NCBI GenBank assembly: GCA_946626695.1
Contig: CAMOUV010000005.1
Coordinates: 1 to 32,601, forward strand
Reading direction: 5' to 3'
Source of the DNA: an uncultured Blautia sp.
Lineage (GTDB): Bacteria; Bacillota; Clostridia; Lachnospirales; Lachnospiraceae
Length of the DNA: 32,601 nt
Below are positions 1 to 22,035 of the stretch, piece after piece. Position numbers and translations under genes: made by a program. Under the pieces are notes generated by a model, which had not been told where the DNA came from, searched no databases, and worked only from the letters and a program-made list of their open reading frames with translations. Numbering within the stretch: position 1 is the stretch's first letter; each line of letters starts with the position of its first letter.

Positions 1-230
1 CGAATGAAAAAGCAAGTTTGTCATTATGGCTTATTATTCGCAGGAATATAACAATCCATACTGAAAGCGTGATCGAAGTCTTTTTCGTCGTTTGTATTTC
101 ATATTCCAGGCTTTTGGCCTTTCTTTATTTGTTTTAATATCTCTTTAAAACCTCTTATTTGCAAATCAATATCAAAATCCCTATTCTATTTAATACAAAT
201 TTTTTAAAACGATTATACTTTCAGCCAACA

Positions 231-266
231 AAAAAAGGAATGTTTCACGTGAAACATTCCTTTTTT
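231..266. terminator. Perfect 36-nt palindromic terminator (A6-GGAATGTTTCACGTGAAACATTCC-T6) downstream of rsmG; contains parS
   Basis: AAAAAAGGAATGTTTCACGTGAAACATTCCTTTTTT read directly; lies just past the rsmG stop (268). Confidence 0.8.
241..256. promoter_or_regulatory. parS: parS centromere-like site (ParB/Spo0J binding)
   Basis: Exact TGTTTCACGTGAAACA, the 16-mer known as the Firmicutes parS consensus. Confidence 0.93.
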
Positions 267-267
267 C

Positions 268-993
268 TTATAGGGGATCTTTCGAAGGAGTCCCTGCTTT
301 CCTGGGATATTTACCTGATATCTGACGGATCTTATGGATCAGCAGCAAAGTTCTTTGATACTCCATGTCAACAGGAGAGAAGTATTTCACATCCTCCATT
401 TCACTTCCAAGAATACTCAAAGCATTCTTTGAATTCTCGATTTCACTGTTCGCAGTATCAAAGCCTCCTTTGTAGGCTACAAAGTGGCCATTCACACGAA
501 CAAATGGAAGAGTAAGCTCACATAATACCGGCAGGGATGCAACTGCCCTGGATACACACAGATCAAATTTTTCTCTGTATTCGTTTCGATGTGCCAGATC
601 TTCTGACCGTCCATGCATAGCAGTTATCGAATCCAGTTTCAGCAGATCAATCGTTTCATTTAGGAAATCAACCCGTTTCCGGAGTGAATCGAGTAAAACT
701 ATATTGATTTCTGGATATACTATCTTGATTGGAATGCCAGGAAATCCTGCACCTGTTCCAATATCGATCACGTTTTTCTTCCTTCTCACGTCCAGGACCT
801 TAACAAGAGAAAGACTGTCGTAAAAGTGTTTTCTGACAACCTCTTTGAAATCCGTGATTGCTGTCAGATTCATTACTTTATTTTTTTCGACCAGAAAATG
901 ATAATACTTCATGAACTTTTCGATCTGGTCTTCATTCAGGTCAATTCCCAGATCTTTTATGGAAGTGTAGAGATATTTTTCTTCATTATTCAT
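268..993 (-). CDS. rsmG: 16S rRNA (guanine-N7) methyltransferase RsmG/GidB
   Basis: Motifs [17 protein letters not shown] and [18 protein letters not shown]; start at the internal MNNEEKYLY preferred because of the GGAAGGAG RBS; position next to mnmG. Confidence 0.93.
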
Positions 994-2884
994 CTCTGTG
1001 TCTCCTTCCATATTGTTCCATGTAGACAAGAAGGACCGATATATCAGCAGGAGAGACTCCCGAAATACGTGAAGCCTGTCCGATTGAAACGGGCTGATAT
1101 TCTTTCAGCTTCTGCCTGGCCTCCAGGCGGAGGCTTCCAACATCATCATAGTTGATGTCTGCCGGTATCTTCTTTATCTCCAGCTTTTTAAACTGTTCAA
1201 CCTGCTTTTTCTGCCTTGTGATGTATCCTTCGTATTTTACATTGATTTCAACCTGTTCACATACATCGTCTGAAAGAACAGGACGTTCTTTATCAAGAAC
1301 AGCAAGAGAGGAATACGTGAGTTCCGGTCTTTTAACAAGCTCCGACAGGGTAATTCCTGATTTTAAGGGAGTGCTTTCCTTTTCGATCAGAAACTTCTGT
1401 ACTTCCTCCGTATTGCCAATATAGGTATGTTCCAGTCTTTCTGTTTCCTGACGGATCAGTTCTTCCTTCCTGCAGACCTTCTGATAGGTTTCTTCATCCA
1501 CAAGACCAACCCGGTATCCTTTTTCCCGAAGACGAAGGTCCGCGTTATCCTGACGAAGAAGCAGCCGGTATTCTGCCCGGCTTGTCATCATTCGATAAGG
1601 CTCCCGGTTTTCCTTTGTCACCAGATCATCGATCAGTACACCAATGTAGGCTTCAGACCGATCCAATACCAGAGGTTCTTTGCCGAGAATCTTCATGGAA
1701 GCATTGATGCCGGCAATCAGGCCCTGGGCCGCAGCTTCCTCATAACCCGAGCTTCCGTTAAACTGTCCTGCGCTGAAAAGGCCCTGTATCTTCCGGAATT
1801 CCAGCGTCGGATACAGCTGTCTTGCATCAATACAGTCATATTCGATGGCGTAAGCGTTTTTAACGATCTTCGCGTGTTCCAGACCTGGTACGGAGTGGTA
1901 CATTTCGAATTGGACATCCTCGGGCAGAGAACTGGACATACCGGAAAGATACATCTCGTTGGTATAATTGCCTTCCGGCTCCACAAAGACCTGGTGACGG
2001 TTTTTCTCCGCAAAACGGACCACCTTGTCTTCGATGGACGGGCAGTACCGCGGCCCGGTCCCTTCGATGGTTCCGGAGAACAAAGGAGAGCGGACCAGAT
2101 TTGCCCGGATAATCTCGTGGGTTTTTTCCGTTGTATAGGTCAGATAACAGGATCTCTGGGGAATCTGCACATCCTTCGGATCGGTGGAAAAGGAGAAGGG
2201 CACAACCGGAACATCTCCTTTCTGTTCCTCCATTTTGCTGTAGTCCAGCGTATTTCCCGCTACTCTGGCTGGTGTACCGGTCTTAAAGCGAAGCATACGG
2301 ATTCCAAGCGATAAGAGGGAGTCCGTCAGATAATTGGCCGCCTGGAGGCCGTTAGGGCCTGTAGGATAGCTGACATCTCCGTAGATGCATCTGGCCTTCA
2401 GATAAGTCCCGGTGCAGAGGATCACGGCCTTGCTGTGATAGACGGCTCCGGAATAGGTCGTAACGCCCCGGATCTGCCCGTTTTCGACGATCAGAGAAGC
2501 GACCTCCCCCTGGCGTATGGTGATGTTTTCGTTTTCTTCCAGTGTACGCCTCATGGCGTTGGTGTAAGCCTGCTTGTCCGCCTGCGCCCGAAGGGAATGA
2601 ACCGCCGGTCCTTTTGATTTATTCAGCATTCTGGACTGCAGAAAGGTCTTGTCGATGTTCTTGCCCATCTCACCGCCCAGGGCGTCCAGTTCCCTCACCA
2701 GATGCCCCTTTGAGGTCCCTCCGATGTTTGGATTGCAGGGCATCAGGGCGATGCTTTCGGCGCTGACGGTAAACAGGATCACCTGAAGACCCAGACGGGC
2801 TCCCGCCAGAGCAGCTTCACATCCTGCATGACCGGCACCGACCACAACGATATCATAGTTTTCTGTAATCTTTTTTTCTGTCAT
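986..2884 (-). CDS. mnmG: tRNA uridine-5-carboxymethylaminomethyl modification enzyme MnmG/GidA
   Basis: FAD motif [32 protein letters not shown]; 632 aa; synteny. Confidence 0.97.
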
Positions 2885-2893
2885 GTTCTCATC

Positions 2894-4270
2894 CTATTTT
2901 CCGATACAGAATTTGCTGAAAATTTCGTTTACAATATCTTCACTGACGGATTCTCCGGTGATCCTTCCGAGAGCCTCGCAGGCGTTCCGGAGATCAATGG
3001 CAAGACAGTCCTCGGGCATGCCCAGCTCCGCCCCCTGGGTCACCAGCTGCAGGGCATCCTGGGCCTCTGTCAGGGCCTCTTTATGCCGGCTGTTGGTGAC
3101 ATACACTTCGTCGTTAAAGGAGAGGCTTCCGCTGAAAAACATCTTCTCGATGGTGTCTTCCAGCTCATCCAGCCCTTTGTTCTCCACCATGGACACAGGG
3201 ATCACGGGATGCGGCTGCACGGCCTGTGATACCTCCTCCACGGAAATCTGCGGGGAAAGGTCCGTCTTGTTATACAAAACGATCACCTTGCGGCCTTGCA
3301 GGATCGGCAGGATCTCCTCGTCATTCTCATCCATGGGAGTGGAAGAGTCAACCACATACAGGATCAGGTCAGCCTTGTCCGCCATATCCCGGGAACGCTC
3401 CACTCCGATCTTCTCAATGGTATCCTCGGTATTCCTGATCCCGGCGGTATCGATCAGATGCAGGGTGATCCCCTTGATATTCATGAATTCCTCCAGCGTA
3501 TCCCGGGTCGTCCCTGCGATGTTCGTCACGATTGCCCGTTCTTCTCCGAGCATGGTATTCAGAAGAGAAGATTTCCCGGCATTCGGTTTTCCGAGGATAA
3601 CGGTCCGGATCCCTTCCCGGATCAGCTTTCCGTCGGAAAAATGATCCAGAAGCCAGGCCAGCTTCTGTCTCTGGGTATCGACAACATTGCAGATTGTTTC
3701 GGTATAGCCATCCAGACTGATATGCTCCGGATCATCCAGGGCCGATTCGATATAAGCAATCTGGTACAGCAGATCCTTCCGTATCTCCGCGATCTTTTCC
3801 GAAAGAGAGCCCTTCAGCTGCTCCAGAGAACTCTGAAGCGCATATTCGTTTCTGGACCGGATCACATCCATGACCGCTTCGGCCTGAGACAGGTCCAGAC
3901 GGCCATTCAGAAATGCCCTTTTGGTGAATTCACCGGGTTCCGCGATGGAGGCTCCGTTTTTCAATACGGTTTCCAGTACCTTTTTCATGGAAAGGATCCC
4001 GCCATGGCAGTCAATCTCGACGGTGTCTTCCCCGGTATAGGTATGGGGCCCTTTCATGATCATGACCAGGACCTCGTCGATCGTTTTTTCTCCGTCAAAG
4101 ATATACCCGTAATGGATGGTATGGGAGGGTACGGAAAGAATGTCTTTTTCTTTTTTTCCGGGACGGAATATTTTACAGATCACCTGCATTGCTTCCGGTC
4201 CGCTGATCCGGATGATCCCGATTCCGGCCTCGCTCATGGCGGACGAAATTGCCGCTATCGTTTCTCTCAT
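2894..4270 (-). CDS. mnmE: tRNA modification GTPase MnmE/TrmE
   Basis: GKPNAGKSSLLN, DTAGIRNTEDTIEKIGVERS, C-terminal FCIGK. Confidence 0.97.
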   Translation of the reverse strand: MRETIAAISSAMSEAGIGIIRISGPEAMQVICKIFRPGKKEKDILSVPSHTIHYGYIFDGEKTIDEVLVMIMKGPHTYTGEDTVEIDCHGGILSMKKVLETVLKNGASIAEPGEFTKRAFLNGRLDLSQAEAVMDVIRSRNEYALQSSLEQLKGSLSEKIAEIRKDLLYQIAYIESALDDPEHISLDGYTETICNVVDTQRQKLAWLLDHFSDGKLIREGIRTVILGKPNAGKSSLLNTMLGEERAIVTNIAGTTRDTLEEFMNIKGITLHLIDTAGIRNTEDTIEKIGVERSRDMADKADLILYVVDSSTPMDENDEEILPILQGRKVIVLYNKTDLSPQISVEEVSQAVQPHPVIPVSMVENKGLDELEDTIEKMFFSGSLSFNDEVYVTNSRHKEALTEAQDALQLVTQGAELGMPEDCLAIDLRNACEALGRITGESVSEDIVNEIFSKFCIGK

Positions 4271-4356: not shown

Positions 4357-5370
4357 TCAGTTCTTTTTCAGTTTAACCACAATATGTCTGTAAGGCTCTT
4401 CCCCTTCACTGATGGTCTCGACATATTTGTTTCCCTGCAATGCAGAGTGGATGATCCTTCTTTCGTAAGGATTCATCGGTTCAAGAACGACCGGTCTTCT
4501 GGACTTCTTGACCTTGTAGGCGATCCCTTTTGCAAGGTTTTCCAGGGTATCCTTACGGCGTCTGCGGTAGTCCTCCGTATCCAGCTTGACGCGGATATAG
4601 TTTTCCTGGCCCTTGTTTACGACAAGGCTGGTCAGGTACTGCAGCGAATCCAGAGTCTGGCCTCTCTTTCCGATCAGAACGCCCATGTCATCGCCTTCGA
4701 AATCCACTTCCAGGCTGCCGTCCTCACGGTTGTATACCGATTTGATCTCGACCTCTCCGAGCTCCATGGAATCGAAGACATCCTTCAGGAAATCAGCAGC
4801 TCTCTGCTCAACCTGACGGATCACTTCTTCATCCTTGATGATCTCGATGGGCTTGCTCTGATGAACCGGTTTTTCCTCTGCCTCCGGTTTTGCCTGTTCC
4901 TTCTGTTCTTTCTGTCTGGGCTCCTTCGGAGCCTTTTCCTGTTTCTGTTTTTCCTTCCGGGGAGTCTCGTTCGCCGGCTTTTCTTCCGGTTTTCCTTCGG
5001 CTGCCGCGGGAGCTTCCTCCGGAGCTTTTTCCTTCACCGGTTTGTCCTTCGGTTTGTTTTCCTTTGCCGGTTTCGGAGTCTGCTTTTTCTCATTCTTGGG
5101 TTTCGGTTTTCCGGAATCCTTCTTTTCGGGCGCTTTGATCGCATCCAGACTTACACTGTCGATGATTTCCTTGATTTCCTGTTCTTCCGCGCTTTCGGCT
5201 TTTCTGCGGGCCTTGATCACAGCCGGCTTGGCACCAAATCCGAAAAATCCCGTGGTTCCCTCGGAAATCACGATGATATCCAGCTGATCGCTGGTGGTTC
5301 CCAGCTCAATGCAGGCCTTGGTGATGGCTTCGTTTTTATTTTTTGCCGAAAACTGCATATATTCTTCCAT
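4357..5370 (-). CDS. jag: Jag/KhpB-like RNA-binding protein (Jag_N, KH, R3H) with long K/E/P-rich linker
   Basis: N-term MEEYMQFSAKNKNEAITKACIELGTTSDQL; KH-like VLIGKRGQTLDSLQYLTSLVVN; position before yidC; start chosen by GGAAGGA RBS. Confidence 0.9.
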   Translation of the reverse strand: MEEYMQFSAKNKNEAITKACIELGTTSDQLDIIVISEGTTGFFGFGAKPAVIKARRKAESAEEQEIKEIIDSVSLDAIKAPEKKDSGKPKPKNEKKQTPKPAKENKPKDKPVKEKAPEEAPAAAEGKPEEKPANETPRKEKQKQEKAPKEPRQKEQKEQAKPEAEEKPVHQSKPIEIIKDEEVIRQVEQRAADFLKDVFDSMELGEVEIKSVYNREDGSLEVDFEGDDMGVLIGKRGQTLDSLQYLTSLVVNKGQENYIRVKLDTEDYRRRRKDTLENLAKGIAYKVKKSRRPVVLEPMNPYERRIIHSALQGNKYVETISEGEEPYRHIVVKLKKN

Positions 5371-5391
5371 GCGTGTAGATCCTTCCTTCAC

Positions 5392-6693
5392 TTACTTCTT
5401 TTTATTTCTCTCATCAAAGTCTCGGACCATGTTTGCCTTCGCCGTTATGCTGCCGGGTCTTGCATTTTTTGCCTTATCATAGGCATCGCTCACTTTTCTG
5501 GCCCTGGAATCCGGACTGGTATTGCTGCTGCCTTTTTCAACACGGGTATCGATGTTTCTGACACTCTGGTGGGCCTGATTCGTGATCTTCTGGGGAGGAA
5601 GACCGTTCTTTGCACGTTTTTCCTCGATCTTCTTCATGTTCTCGTTGATCAGGACATCCATGTCGATCTTATCCAGATGACGATTGATCAGCACCTGCTG
5701 CACGCTTCGCACCACTGCGCTGGCGATCCAGTAGATACCCATACCAACGGGGAATGTGAAACAGAATACGGCTGACATCAGAGGCATTACGGTGTTCATA
5801 GTCTTCATGGAATTGGCCATGGTACCGGTTGCCTGCTCATTGTTGGATGCCTGCGGCATCAGCTTGATGTTGGCCATCTGTGTTGCCCAGGAAAGGATCG
5901 GGATCAGCAGTGCGATGATTGCAAGAAGGATCGGCCCGTTGCCCTGGAAAAAGTCCATGATATAGGTGAGCGGCTGGTTGGCGATGTTCAGCTTGCAGAA
6001 GCTCTGCATCGGAGAAATATCGGCGGCCGTCTTGGTGATGGTGGAAGAAAGTCCCGAAAATTCTGCGACCTCTTTCAGCTTTTCCCACTGATCCGTGGAA
6101 AGTGCATACAGGAAGTCGATCACGGAATTGTTGGTCGCAATGCCGTCTTCCACGACCAGGGCCACACGGCCCATCTTATTGTCGGTGATGAACTGCTGAA
6201 GGATCTCCGTAAAGCCGTTCACACCGGTGATGCCGTTTACCAGATCGGTAAAGACATCCCTTACGCTTCCTACATAGGCGGGGATCCGGTAGATAACCTG
6301 CCACAGCGCCATCAGGATCGGAAACTGGATGGCCAGCTGTACACAGCTGCCCGTAGGCGATACGCCATACTTCTGATAAACGAGCTGTGTTTCCTCGTTC
6401 ATCCTCTGCATGGATTCCTGGTCTCTTTTCCCCTGGTATTTTTTCTGTACGGCCTGGATCTCAGGCTGCATGATTGCGCTCAGCTTGGAAAATTTCTGCT
6501 GCTTGATCTGCAGCGGTGTCATCAGAAGATAAATGATGATACTGAAAATAATGATACAAAGGCCCAGATTCTGGATCCCGAAAAGACCATTCAGGAACCG
6601 GAAAATACCATCCATGATAAAGCCCATCAGAGATGCAATCTGGCCAATGACCGGTGTACTGCTTTTTGTCGCTAATAAAAAATCCAAATTCAA
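5392..6693 (-). CDS. yidC: Membrane protein insertase YidC/OxaI
   Basis: GLCIIIFSIIIYLLMTPLQIKQQKFSKLSAIMQPEIQAVQKKY; hydrophobic segments; synteny. Confidence 0.95.
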   Translation of the reverse strand: MNLDFLLATKSSTPVIGQIASLMGFIMDGIFRFLNGLFGIQNLGLCIIIFSIIIYLLMTPLQIKQQKFSKLSAIMQPEIQAVQKKYQGKRDQESMQRMNEETQLVYQKYGVSPTGSCVQLAIQFPILMALWQVIYRIPAYVGSVRDVFTDLVNGITGVNGFTEILQQFITDNKMGRVALVVEDGIATNNSVIDFLYALSTDQWEKLKEVAEFSGLSSTITKTAADISPMQSFCKLNIANQPLTYIMDFFQGNGPILLAIIALLIPILSWATQMANIKLMPQASNNEQATGTMANSMKTMNTVMPLMSAVFCFTFPVGMGIYWIASAVVRSVQQVLINRHLDKIDMDVLINENMKKIEEKRAKNGLPPQKITNQAHQSVRNIDTRVEKGSSNTSPDSRARKVSDAYDKAKNARPGSITAKANMVRDFDERNKKK

Positions 6694-7683: not shown

Positions 7684-9432
7684 TCATTCCTTCACAAATT
7701 TTTCTCTCTTCACATAAGAGGTGTGCAGAGCATGATGCGCTTCTCCCTTTCCGAAGCCTTCGGTATACCACTCTTTGTACAGAGTCTTGACAAAGGGTGA
7801 TTCATGAGACTTGCGGAGGGTCATGGCCTGATCCTGATCATACAGAGCCTTTGCACGGACTGCCTTCAGATCGACAGTGTCACGTACATACTGCGGCTGA
7901 TAGGGCTGTCCGCCGCCGTTTACGCAGCCGCCCGGGCATCCCATGATCTCGATGAAGGTCCATCCTTCGGGATTGCCTGCTGCCAGCTTGTCCATGACAT
8001 TCTTGGCTGCTGCAGCGCCGGAAGCGACGGCTACCTTTACCTTCATGCCTGCGAAGTCGACTTCGGCTTCCTTCAGGCCGGCTGTACCACGGACTGCATG
8101 GAAATCAACATCCGTGTTGTCCTTGCCGGTGAGCCAGTCATTGGCGGTACGAAGAGCTGCTTCCATAACACCGCCGGTTGCGCCGAAGATTACGGCTGCG
8201 CCGGTGTCTTCGCTCAGCGGGCTGTCATATTCTTCATCGGGAAGTGCGGTGAACTTGATGCCTGCACGGTCGATCATGCGGCTCAGTTCTCTGGTGGTGA
8301 TGACCACGTCAACATCCGGATATCCGGAAGCGTTCTCGTCGTCACGGCCGATCTCGAATTTCTTCGCTGTACAGGGCATAACCGATACAACGACGATATC
8401 CTTGGGATCGATTCCCATCTTCTGTGCATAGTAGGTCTTGATCACGGCACCCAGCATGGTGTGCGGCGATTTGCAGGTAGACAGATGAGAGGTCAGATCG
8501 CCGTAATAGGTCTCGCAGAACTTGACCCATCCCGGTGAACAGGAGGTAATCATCGGAAGAACGCCATTGTTGTTGATGCGCTCTACCAGCTCATTTGCCT
8601 CTTCCACGATGGTCAGGTCAGCACCTGCATCGGTGTCAAACACTTTGTAGAAGCCGAGACGGCGGAGTGCAGCGACCATTTTGCCTTCCACGTTGGTGCC
8701 GGGTTCCATGCCGAAGCATTCGCCCAGGGTAGCACGGACAGCGGGAGCGGTCTGTACGATGACCTTCTTGGAGGAATCTGCCAGAGCAGCCCATACCTTG
8801 TCGGTGTCATCCTTCTCAACCAGAGCGCCGGTCGGACATACAACCGTACACTGGCCGCAGGCGATACAGGGTGTGTTCGCCAGAGACATTCCGAATGCCT
8901 GGCCGATGTTGGTATCGATACCACGGTCATTGGCGCCCAGTACGGAAACAAACTGTTCCTTGCAGGCTGCTACGCAGCGGCGGCAAAGGATACATTTGTT
9001 GTTGTCGCGTACCAGATGAACCATGCTGGTGTCAAGCTCATATTCCGGCTTGAAGCCTTCAAATGCATGCTCGTCCACGCCGTACTCATAGCAGAGCTTC
9101 TGCAGTTCGCAGTTGGTGGAACGTACGCAGGACAGACACTCTTTCTTATGCGTGGAAAGCATCAGCTCAAGAGTCGTCTTTCTTGCCTTCAGTACCCGGG
9201 CGGTATTGGTACGGACATCCATGCCCTCTGCCACCGGGAATACACAGGAGGTAACAATACGGCCGTTGGCCTCTACTACACAGATCCGGCAGGCGCCGAT
9301 CTCGTTCTTTTCCTTCATGAAGCAAAGGGTGGGAATCTCCACTCCCGAAAGACGGGCAGCTTCAAGGATGGTGGTATTTGCCGGAACGCTTACCGGAATA
9401 CCGTTAATCGTCAAATTAATCATATTTTCCAT
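7684..9432 (-). CDS. hydA: NADH-dependent/bifurcating [FeFe] hydrogenase catalytic subunit (group A)
   Basis: N-terminal 2Fe-2S (GVEIPTLCFMKEKNEIGACRICVVE), 4Fe-4S clusters, H-cluster motifs TSCSPGW, MPCTAKK, EIMGCPGGCVNGGGQP. Confidence 0.95.
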   Translation of the reverse strand: MENMINLTINGIPVSVPANTTILEAARLSGVEIPTLCFMKEKNEIGACRICVVEANGRIVTSCVFPVAEGMDVRTNTARVLKARKTTLELMLSTHKKECLSCVRSTNCELQKLCYEYGVDEHAFEGFKPEYELDTSMVHLVRDNNKCILCRRCVAACKEQFVSVLGANDRGIDTNIGQAFGMSLANTPCIACGQCTVVCPTGALVEKDDTDKVWAALADSSKKVIVQTAPAVRATLGECFGMEPGTNVEGKMVAALRRLGFYKVFDTDAGADLTIVEEANELVERINNNGVLPMITSCSPGWVKFCETYYGDLTSHLSTCKSPHTMLGAVIKTYYAQKMGIDPKDIVVVSVMPCTAKKFEIGRDDENASGYPDVDVVITTRELSRMIDRAGIKFTALPDEEYDSPLSEDTGAAVIFGATGGVMEAALRTANDWLTGKDNTDVDFHAVRGTAGLKEAEVDFAGMKVKVAVASGAAAAKNVMDKLAAGNPEGWTFIEIMGCPGGCVNGGGQPYQPQYVRDTVDLKAVRAKALYDQDQAMTLRKSHESPFVKTLYKEWYTEGFGKGEAHHALHTSYVKREKFVKE

Positions 9433-9450
9433 TCTCCTCAGGCTCCCTTC

Positions 9451-11274
9451 TTACTTTTTGCTGATGGCTTTGAACTTACAGTTCGCCATGCAGGCTCCGC
9501 ACTTGATACACTTATCCTGATGGATCTCGAAGGAGCCCAGTTTGTGGCCAGGAGCGACATAATCGGTACGGGTAATGGTATTGACCGGGCAGTTCTTTGC
9601 GCAGAGACCGCAGCCGATACATTTATCCTTATCGATGGTGTAGGACAGCAGATCTTTACAGACGCCGGCCGGACATCTCTTTTCTACTACGTGAGCCACA
9701 TACTCATCGCGGAAGAACTTCAGGGTAGCAAGCACCGGGTTGGGAGCTGTCTGTCCAAGACCGCAGAGAGAGTTCTCTTTGATGTAGTGGCAGAGCTCTT
9801 CGATCCGGTCCAGATCTTCCAGAGTTCCCTTGCCGGAAGTGATCTTCTCCAGCATTTCCATCAGTCTCTTCATACCGACACGGCAGGGTGTACATTTACC
9901 GCAGGATTCATCAACGGTAAACTGCAGGAAGAACTTAGCCATATCTACCATACAGCTGTCTTCGTCCATGATGATCAGACCGCCGGAACCCATCATACAT
10001 CCGATGGCTGTCAGGTTGTCGTAATCTACCGGTGTGTCGATAAGAGATTCCGGAATACATCCGCCGGAAGGACCGCCGGTCTGGGCTGCCTTGAACTTTT
10101 TGCCGTTCGGAATGCCGCCGCCGATGTCCTCGATGATCTCACGCAGGGTGGTACCCATGGGGATTTCCACCAGACCGGTGTTGTTGATCTTTCCGCCGAG
10201 AGCGAATACCTTGGTACCTTTGGATTTTTCGGTACCCATGGAAGCGAACCAGTCTGCGCCGTTCAGGATGATCTGCGGAATATTTGCAAAGGTCTCCACG
10301 TTGTTTTCAACGGTGGGAGAGTTGTACAGACCACGTACTGCCGGATACGGAGGACGCGGACGCGGCTCACCACGGTTGCCTTCGATGGAGGTCATCAGAG
10401 CAGTCTCTTCACCGCAGACGAATGCGCCGGCGCCAAGACGGATCTGAAGATCAAAATCAAAACCGGAACCGAAGATATCCTTGCCCAGAAGGCCGTACTC
10501 TCTGGCCTGTGCGATTGCGATGCTCAGACGTTTAACGGCGATCGGATATTCTGCACGTACATAGACATAACCCTTTGTTGCACCGATGGCATAACCGGCA
10601 ATAGCCATAGCCTCGATGATGGCGTGGGGATCACCTTCCAGCACGGAACGATCCATGAATGCGCCCGGGTCGCCTTCGTCAGCGTTGCAGACGACATATT
10701 TCTGAGGTGCTTTGTTCGGTGCGCAGAGTGCCCATTTGCGTCCGGTGGGGAATCCGCCGCCGCCTCTTCCGCGGAGACCGGAGTCCGTTACGCACTGGAT
10801 GACCTCTTCCGGCGTCATTTCCGTAAGGGCCTTGCCGAGAGCTGCATAACCGTCCATTGCGATATACTCTTCGATGTTTTCGGGATCGATCACACCGCAG
10901 TTACGCAGAGCCACACGCTTCTGTGCTTTGTAGAAACGGGTCTCTGAAAGAGCGGTATCCAGATGGGTGTCGTCTTCTTCCTTTTTGTCTGTGTCATTGT
11001 ATACCAGACGCTCTACCGGACGTCCCTTCAGCAGATGCTCTTCAACGATTTCCGGAACATCGGCTTCCGTAACACGGCTGTAGAAGGTGCCGTCGGGATA
11101 TACGATTACGACCGGGCCGAGGGAGCAGAGTCCGAAGCATCCGGTCTGAACCAGCTTGACCTCGTTTTCCAGGTCAAAATTCTTAATCTGAGTTTCGAAT
11201 TCCGCGCGGATCTTCGGGCTGCCGGATGACGTACAGCCGGTACCGCCGCAGATAAGTACCTGTGATCTTACCAT
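9451..11274 (-). CDS. hydB: NuoF-like bifurcating hydrogenase subunit B
   Basis: GLRGRGGGGFPTGRKW, NADEGDPGAFMDRSVLEGDPHAIIE, ESCGKCTPCRVG, C-terminal 2x[4Fe-4S]. Confidence 0.95.
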   Translation of the reverse strand: MVRSQVLICGGTGCTSSGSPKIRAEFETQIKNFDLENEVKLVQTGCFGLCSLGPVVIVYPDGTFYSRVTEADVPEIVEEHLLKGRPVERLVYNDTDKKEEDDTHLDTALSETRFYKAQKRVALRNCGVIDPENIEEYIAMDGYAALGKALTEMTPEEVIQCVTDSGLRGRGGGGFPTGRKWALCAPNKAPQKYVVCNADEGDPGAFMDRSVLEGDPHAIIEAMAIAGYAIGATKGYVYVRAEYPIAVKRLSIAIAQAREYGLLGKDIFGSGFDFDLQIRLGAGAFVCGEETALMTSIEGNRGEPRPRPPYPAVRGLYNSPTVENNVETFANIPQIILNGADWFASMGTEKSKGTKVFALGGKINNTGLVEIPMGTTLREIIEDIGGGIPNGKKFKAAQTGGPSGGCIPESLIDTPVDYDNLTAIGCMMGSGGLIIMDEDSCMVDMAKFFLQFTVDESCGKCTPCRVGMKRLMEMLEKITSGKGTLEDLDRIEELCHYIKENSLCGLGQTAPNPVLATLKFFRDEYVAHVVEKRCPAGVCKDLLSYTIDKDKCIGCGLCAKNCPVNTITRTDYVAPGHKLGSFEIHQDKCIKCGACMANCKFKAISKK

Positions 11275-20551: not shown

Positions 20552-20676
20552 TTCCTTTCCCTTCTTGCTTTCTTCCTGCTTCCCTTAATTTCCGATTCTT
20601 TTGATTGCGAAAAATGCAATTTTATTATAAGATGTTAGTTGGGATAGAATGTCAAAAAGAACGAATGGAGAAACCA

Positions 20677-22035
20677 ATGGATAAAGTAACCGAAAAATGG
20701 GACTTGATCCTCAAATCGATCAAAGAAGAATACGAAATCGGCAATGTGCCGTTTAAAACATGGCTTGAACCCCTTAAGGTGGATTCCGTAAAAGACAATA
20801 TCGTTACGCTGGCGGTACCTTCCGAAATGTCCACGGTAGGTCTTAAATATATCAAGGGTCATTATACCCTGCCCCTGCAGGTAACCATCAGCATGATCAC
20901 AGGAATGGAAAACTGTGAAGTCCTGTTTATCCTTAAAGACGAACAGACCGTCAAAAAACCGGCTGTTGTTGTTAATCCGGTGCTGAATGCCCGTTTCCAG
21001 GAGGCAAATCTCAACCCGAAATATACTTTTGATACCTTCATCATCGGAAGCAACAACCGCCTGGCCCAGGCGGCTGCTTTTGCTGTCGCCGAAACCCCGG
21101 GGGAATCCTTCAATCCTCTTTTCATATGGGGAGGCGCTGGGCTTGGAAAGACCCACCTGATGCATTCCATCGCCCATTATATTCTGGAGCACAACGAGAA
21201 CAAGAAAGTTCTGTATGTAACCAGCGAGGATTTTACCAACGAACTGATCCAGATCATCCGAAGCGGAAACAATCCTTCCGAGTGGACCAATTTCCGGAAC
21301 AAATACCGGAATATCGATGTTCTTCTCATCGATGATATCCAGTTTATTATTGGTAAGGAATCCACCCAGGAGGAATTCTTCCATACCTTCAATGCCCTTC
21401 ACGGAGCAAAAAAACAGATCATCATATCCTCCGATAAGAGACCAAAAGATATGGAGACACTGGATGAGCGTTTCCGTTCACGGTTCGAATGGGGCCTGAT
21501 CGCGGACATCTCTTCACCGGATTACGAGACAAGAATGGCGATTCTTCACAAAAAAGAAGAACTGGAAGGATACGAGATCGAAGAAGAGATTCTTCAGTAC
21601 ATTGCAAACAATATCAAATCCAATATCCGGGAACTGGAAGGCGCTTTCAACAAGCTGCTGGCCAAATCCAGACTGGAGCAGAAGGATATCACCATGGAAC
21701 TGGCGGAGGAGGTTCTGAAGGATTACATTTATCCGAACGAAAAGAAGCCTGTCACTCCGGAAAAGATCATTTCCTCCGTGGCGGACTATTTTGAAGTTTC
21801 GCTGGCGGATCTGAAGGGAACCAAAAGAAATTCCAAGATCGTTGTGCCGAGACAGATCGCCATGTATCTCTGCAGAGAGATCACAGGCATCAATTATACC
21901 GAAATCGCGGCTCTTCTCGGCAAAAAGGACCATACCACCATTCTGTACGGGATCGACAAGATCGACAAAGCGATCAAAAAAGATGAAAGCCTCCGGAACA
22001 GCATAGAAATCCTGATCAACAAGATCAACGGATGA
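20677..22035 (+). CDS. dnaA: Chromosomal replication initiator DnaA
   Basis: NPLFIWGGAGLGKTHLMHSIAHYI, VLLIDDIQFI, GKKDHTTILYGIDKI; start at MDKVTEKWDLIL after GGAG RBS. Confidence 0.98.
   Translation: MDKVTEKWDLILKSIKEEYEIGNVPFKTWLEPLKVDSVKDNIVTLAVPSEMSTVGLKYIKGHYTLPLQVTISMITGMENCEVLFILKDEQTVKKPAVVVNPVLNARFQEANLNPKYTFDTFIIGSNNRLAQAAAFAVAETPGESFNPLFIWGGAGLGKTHLMHSIAHYILEHNENKKVLYVTSEDFTNELIQIIRSGNNPSEWTNFRNKYRNIDVLLIDDIQFIIGKESTQEEFFHTFNALHGAKKQIIISSDKRPKDMETLDERFRSRFEWGLIADISSPDYETRMAILHKKEELEGYEIEEEILQYIANNIKSNIRELEGAFNKLLAKSRLEQKDITMELAEEVLKDYIYPNEKKPVTPEKIISSVADYFEVSLADLKGTKRNSKIVVPRQIAMYLCREITGINYTEIAALLGKKDHTTILYGIDKIDKAIKKDESLRNSIEILINKING

Follow-up and report, generated by a model that had tools for sequence, protein, structure and literature searches.

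The window analysed here is an entire contig of 32,601 nucleotides (CAMOUV010000005.1) from a 2.25-Mb draft genome (227 contigs) of an uncultured Blautia sp. Near its left edge it carries the gene run yidC-jag-mnmE-mnmG-rsmG, oriented towards a palindrome that lies immediately behind rsmG and has the chromosomal centromere site parS as its core (Table 1). The true start of rsmG is probably near 990, within the open frame listed. dnaA lies at 20605–22035, 20.4 kb from parS, which places the site in the origin region and agrees with the distance of about 20 kb from oriC given in an earlier note made from the letters of this DNA. An [FeFe] hydrogenase (group A6) and a NuoF-like subunit are encoded at 7684–11274, between dnaA and the yidC run, unlike in a congener (locus L048), where dnaA adjoins the run. 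Beyond parS the contig continues for 240 bp, in the direction in which relatives carry parAB. In the same congener (G018, L048) the interval matching the terminal spacer of the window leads into parA-parB, and the arrangement is unfused: a terminator hairpin of its own stands behind rsmG, with parS copies after it and parA-parB after those.

Table 1. Features of the window at and upstream of the parS palindrome
Feature	Position	Strand	Basis and remarks
A+T-rich spacer, no gene, up to contig edge	1..230	.	30% G+C versus 49% for the window
T7 tract 3′ of hairpin on rsmG strand (A7 on +)	230..236	-	Sequence
36-nt perfect palindrome, hairpin of intrinsic-terminator type	231..266	.	Sequence and folds; stem GGAATGTTTC/GAAACATTCC, ACGT loop, A/T tracts
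parS core TGTTTCACGTGAAACA	241..256	.	Exact match; upper 6 bp of the hairpin and ACGU loop
T6 tract 3′ of hairpin on + strand	261..266	+	Sequence
rsmG (gidB)	268..1029	-	TIGR00138, E 4e-49; open frame as listed; transcript would end at the hairpin
mnmG (gidA)	986..2884	-	TIGR00136, E 5e-261; next gene upstream, same direction
mnmE	2894-4270		Upstream of mnmG; named from the gene order common to relatives
jag	4357-5391		Upstream of mnmE; Jag/EloR model
yidC	5392-6693		Upstream of jag; YidC model

A sequence scan of the window matched the parS 16-mer at 16 of 16 positions, and pairing continues without mismatch for 10 bp on either side of this core, giving the 36-nt perfect palindrome that the earlier note had described; at the local base composition, ten paired flanking positions have a chance probability of ~3e-6. 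The A6 and T6 tracts that the note had placed on its flanks are present, as A7 and T6, but they form the outer part of the palindrome and are not added to it. As RNA, 231–266 is predicted to fold at −18.6 kcal/mol on the rsmG strand (z −8.7, with no shuffled sequence equally stable) and at −18.5 kcal/mol on the other strand, and the hairpin without its A/U part, GGAAUGUUUC-ACGU-GAAACAUUCC, folds at −12.1 kcal/mol. The parS core includes neither the lower stem, GGAA/UUCC, nor the U tract. Since the rsmG stop codon occupies 270–268 on the minus strand, the palindrome starts one base past it, directly behind rsmG as had been noted, and the element has what is expected of an intrinsic terminator: a stable short-loop hairpin, a U tract directly after the stem and a position just 3′ of a gene. 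The similar folds of the two strands and the presence of both T7 and T6 bear out the proposal of a hairpin capable of acting in both directions, termination itself being predicted. Counting against a terminator, a terminating ribosome might delay folding of the hairpin, the stem of which begins ~8 nt past the rsmG stop. A mechanical terminator scan of the window missed the element, apparently because the stem absorbs the A/T tracts and leaves no T tail, and all matches in an Rfam search were far under the gathering scores of their families. A 9/12 promoter match at 190–219 on the + strand was set aside, such matches being no more than the number expected by chance.

The comparison covered parS sites at 80 named rsmG loci of Lachnospiraceae, in relatives of the same genus and order, and in samples of the class and the phylum; as a control for their arms, right arms were exchanged among sites, preserving base composition and parS-flank preferences. 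Perfect arms of at least 8 bp beyond the core are found at 12 of 140 sites in the named loci, versus 0.17 expected (~70-fold), and at 8 of 57 sites in the genus/order set, versus 0.30 expected (~26-fold), while the class sample has arms of at least 7 bp at 4 of 45 sites, versus 0.16 expected; duplicates were removed on the basis of flanking sequence alone and the counts are not wholly free of shared ancestry, although the listed arms differ widely. Only two long-arm sites occur in the phylum-wide sample (34 sites, mostly from other classes), and the effect is therefore strongest among Lachnospiraceae and other bacteria of their class. The majority of parS sites in relatives lie outside hairpins. 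The arm shuffling rules out a chance origin of the long arms in the named loci, the genus/order set and the class sample, and the fusion of parS with a terminator appears to be a case of one palindrome being put to two uses repeatedly. One genome has a variant parS, TGTTCCACGTGGAACA, within a very strong G+C-rich hairpin, AAAAAGCCCCCCGATGTTCCACGTGGAACATCGGGGGGCTTTTT (G138:C14:25624–25691), so core variants also occur in terminator-like hairpins.

Directly 3′ of rsmG, the position occupied in the window, one relative (L268) has the same GGAATG arms, followed by T7, at a point where its contig also ends, and in others (L251, L093, L150, L154 and L090) the arms are different and still pair. In an alignment of this position (A2; nine rows, 16 pairs) 9 of the 16 pairs have changed on both sides, and the seven invariant inner pairs are the parS core together with the first flanking pair. 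Across these rows, a partly selected set because three of the nine (L268, L251 and L252) came from a T6-selected search, 89.6% of cells are paired, versus 73.8% in shuffles, and covariation is 0.455 versus 0.136. Five named loci, which were not selected in this way, have parS no more than 150 bp from rsmG, and at four of them the arms reach at least 5 bp. That conserved arms are required for DNA binding is ruled out by the free variation of arm sequences while pairing is kept. A core held invariant, as ParB recognition would demand, between arms held by pairing only, as an RNA form would demand, thus points to a parS built into the rsmG terminator.

The surroundings of long-arm sites were examined with gene ends taken from simple open-reading-frame calls and not from curated annotation; on this basis a gene 3′ end is found no more than 60 bp away from 12 of the 23 sites with arms of at least 7 bp and from 32 of the 152 sites with short arms (p 0.0026); coding sequence contains none of the former and 21 of the latter. 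A T run of at least 4 is present on the sense strand at 8 of 16 long-arm and 7 of 51 short-arm sites, and on the antisense strand at only 2 of the 16. Terminator-like parS sites, defined by the core, arms of at least 4 bp and a T tract, number 22 among 279, versus 1.65 expected. In the family (299 genomes), 46 genomes have T6 at 2–14 nt after parS, versus 24 that have it at 40–52 nt. The gene-end placement and sense-strand T tracts, together with the recurrence and the compensatory arm changes, support the central claim of the earlier note, that parS is fused with a terminator-type hairpin.

The arms could also have arisen by mutation, the 16-bp parS nucleating single-stranded DNA hairpins in which template switching (quasipalindrome correction) makes the flanks complementary, so that the arms would be a by-product with no transcriptional role. 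Such palindrome growth covers the long arms that lack a T tract or a nearby gene end (L034:13031, 15 bp; L082:20494; L120:7765), the extreme 25-bp arms at L032:10128 and the lack of G+C enrichment in long arms (32% versus 31%). However, it predicts neither the excess at gene 3′ ends, nor sense-strand T tracts unaccompanied by an antisense excess, nor the excess of T6 at 2–14 nt, and we regard it as unlikely. It can explain some sites, above all those without a T tract, and growth of this kind could supply raw material for terminators.

Within the genome, 241–256 is the only site at up to two mismatches from parS, a scan for further copies having been proposed in the earlier note. A search of the assembly, which is rated 94% complete, found no ParB, and a search with an approximate generic ParA N-terminus as query yielded no close ParA, only a 35% match, which is weak evidence; as the assembly is without ParB, 241–256 is a putative binding site for it. 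Genomes of the genus generally have both chromosomal ParB and exact parS or neither. A strong chromosomal ParB is present in 17 of 24 congeners, and 16 of these 17 have exact parS, in 2–6 copies each versus one in the genome of the window, while six of the eight genus genomes lacking chromosomal ParB have no exact parS. The other two are this genome and G012, and both have their site near a contig end. Given this co-occurrence, and given that the contig ends on the parAB side, parAB is most simply taken to lie just past the contig edge.

It is conceivable that the lineage has instead lost ParAB and that the parS sequence persists since its hairpin still terminates rsmG transcription. The missing ParB, the single parS copy and the existence of several congeners without chromosomal ParB are consistent with such a loss, but the contig stops short of the very region in which relatives have parAB, the core is perfect at all 16 positions, and apart from G012 the other ParB-less congeners have not kept an exact parS; we therefore consider this history very unlikely. 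Contigs end beside or within parS in several assemblies (window position 1, G000:C5; L009, G012:C272; L268, G420:C26; and G420:C181). In G420 the GGAATG parS terminator is present twice, once at the extreme end of a contig, which could break short-read assembly.

We consider it likely that 231–266 is a genuine chromosomal parS within the intrinsic terminator of the yidC-jag-mnmE-mnmG-rsmG run, and that the two functions co-exist without mutual control. In double-stranded DNA the 16-bp core would serve, near oriC, to load ParB clamps; once transcribed, these 16 nt would form the top of the terminator hairpin. The core sequence would be fixed by ParB recognition, with the arms free to change provided that pairing persists, so that different lineages would make the fusion from different arms. 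Such fusions may often arise where parS sits just behind a gene end beside parAB. We infer that ParB occupies the site, that transcripts end there and that neither ParB loading nor termination regulates the other. RNA polymerase would traverse parS before terminating, and parS would thus not be shielded from transcription of its own operon.

Regulatory coupling has been considered as well, with ParB at parS altering rsmG termination, or transcription ejecting ParB, so as to tie segregation to operon output and to a downstream parAB. The earlier note had suggested such a link between segregation and termination, and an effect of ParB loading on readthrough, neither of which is supported by these data. 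Both functions fall on one 16-bp sequence, and readthrough would reach parAB in several relatives, where it forms the next operon and points the same way. Yet RNA polymerase moves steadily through ParB-DNA condensates in vitro (PMC10681803), the expression of genes beside parS sites in B. subtilis is unaffected by Spo0J loss (reviewed in PMC7022226), and no sequence feature requires coupling, which makes this mechanism extremely improbable. A wider proposal, that the centromere sites of the family have been selected to sit in bidirectional terminators, placing ParB loading or SMC recruitment at a transcription boundary where ParB occupancy would tune readthrough into parAB, appears highly doubtful.

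parS occurs in other settings among the relatives. Many congeners, in similar surroundings, have an exact parS within the coding sequence of a long open reading frame (~490–640 aa); this coding parS is found repeatedly in the genus, while the window has nothing comparable (L033:10450, L034:2547, L035:3209, L037:3488, L041:11229, L042:7630, L043:333, L045:14229, L046:10661 and L049:9782). Elsewhere a TATACT/TATAAT box follows 7–9 nt after parS, in several cases ahead of parA (L090:10795, L096:10778, L122:12563, L132:20204, L152:12267 and L153:11842), and parS may there double as the −35 side of a promoter for parAB. A further repeated neighbourhood, like CACAAGATAATGTTTCACGTGAAACA followed by CAAGATATTG, is found at L109:13263, L134:15890, L141:13343, L155:20078, L156:12448 and L160:13576, where parS is often the second of two sites ~49 bp apart.

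If confirmed, the element would be one short palindrome that is read in two unrelated ways, as DNA by ParB and as RNA in termination, a combination assembled repeatedly by evolution near the replication origin, and parS and terminator annotations would overlap. The fused sites offer natural test cases for the debated question of whether transcription termination responds to ParB loading, or ParB loading to termination. In the open-licence literature we found no paper that places parS inside terminators; the main parS survey lies outside that scope, and an earlier mention is possible. The word “terminator” is absent from two parS reviews (PMC7333895; PMC7022226).

Like the chromosomal parS sites of Bacillota, at which ParB/Spo0J loads, the window's site has the exact 16 bp, lies ~20 kb from dnaA and adjoins the rsmG operon where relatives have parAB; it differs from them in being the core of a hairpin of intrinsic-terminator type. 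With intrinsic (Rho-independent) terminators it shares the stable short-loop hairpin directly 3′ of a gene, the U tract and the potential to act in both directions, but the top 16 nt of its hairpin would be fixed by the needs of DNA binding and not by folding alone. A comparable reuse is known from Neisseria, where DNA uptake sequences, short motifs with a non-transcriptional role, are employed in Rho-independent terminators (PMC2397512). In Neisseria, however, the stem consists of two inverted copies of the motif, whereas in the window free arms extend one palindromic centromere site.
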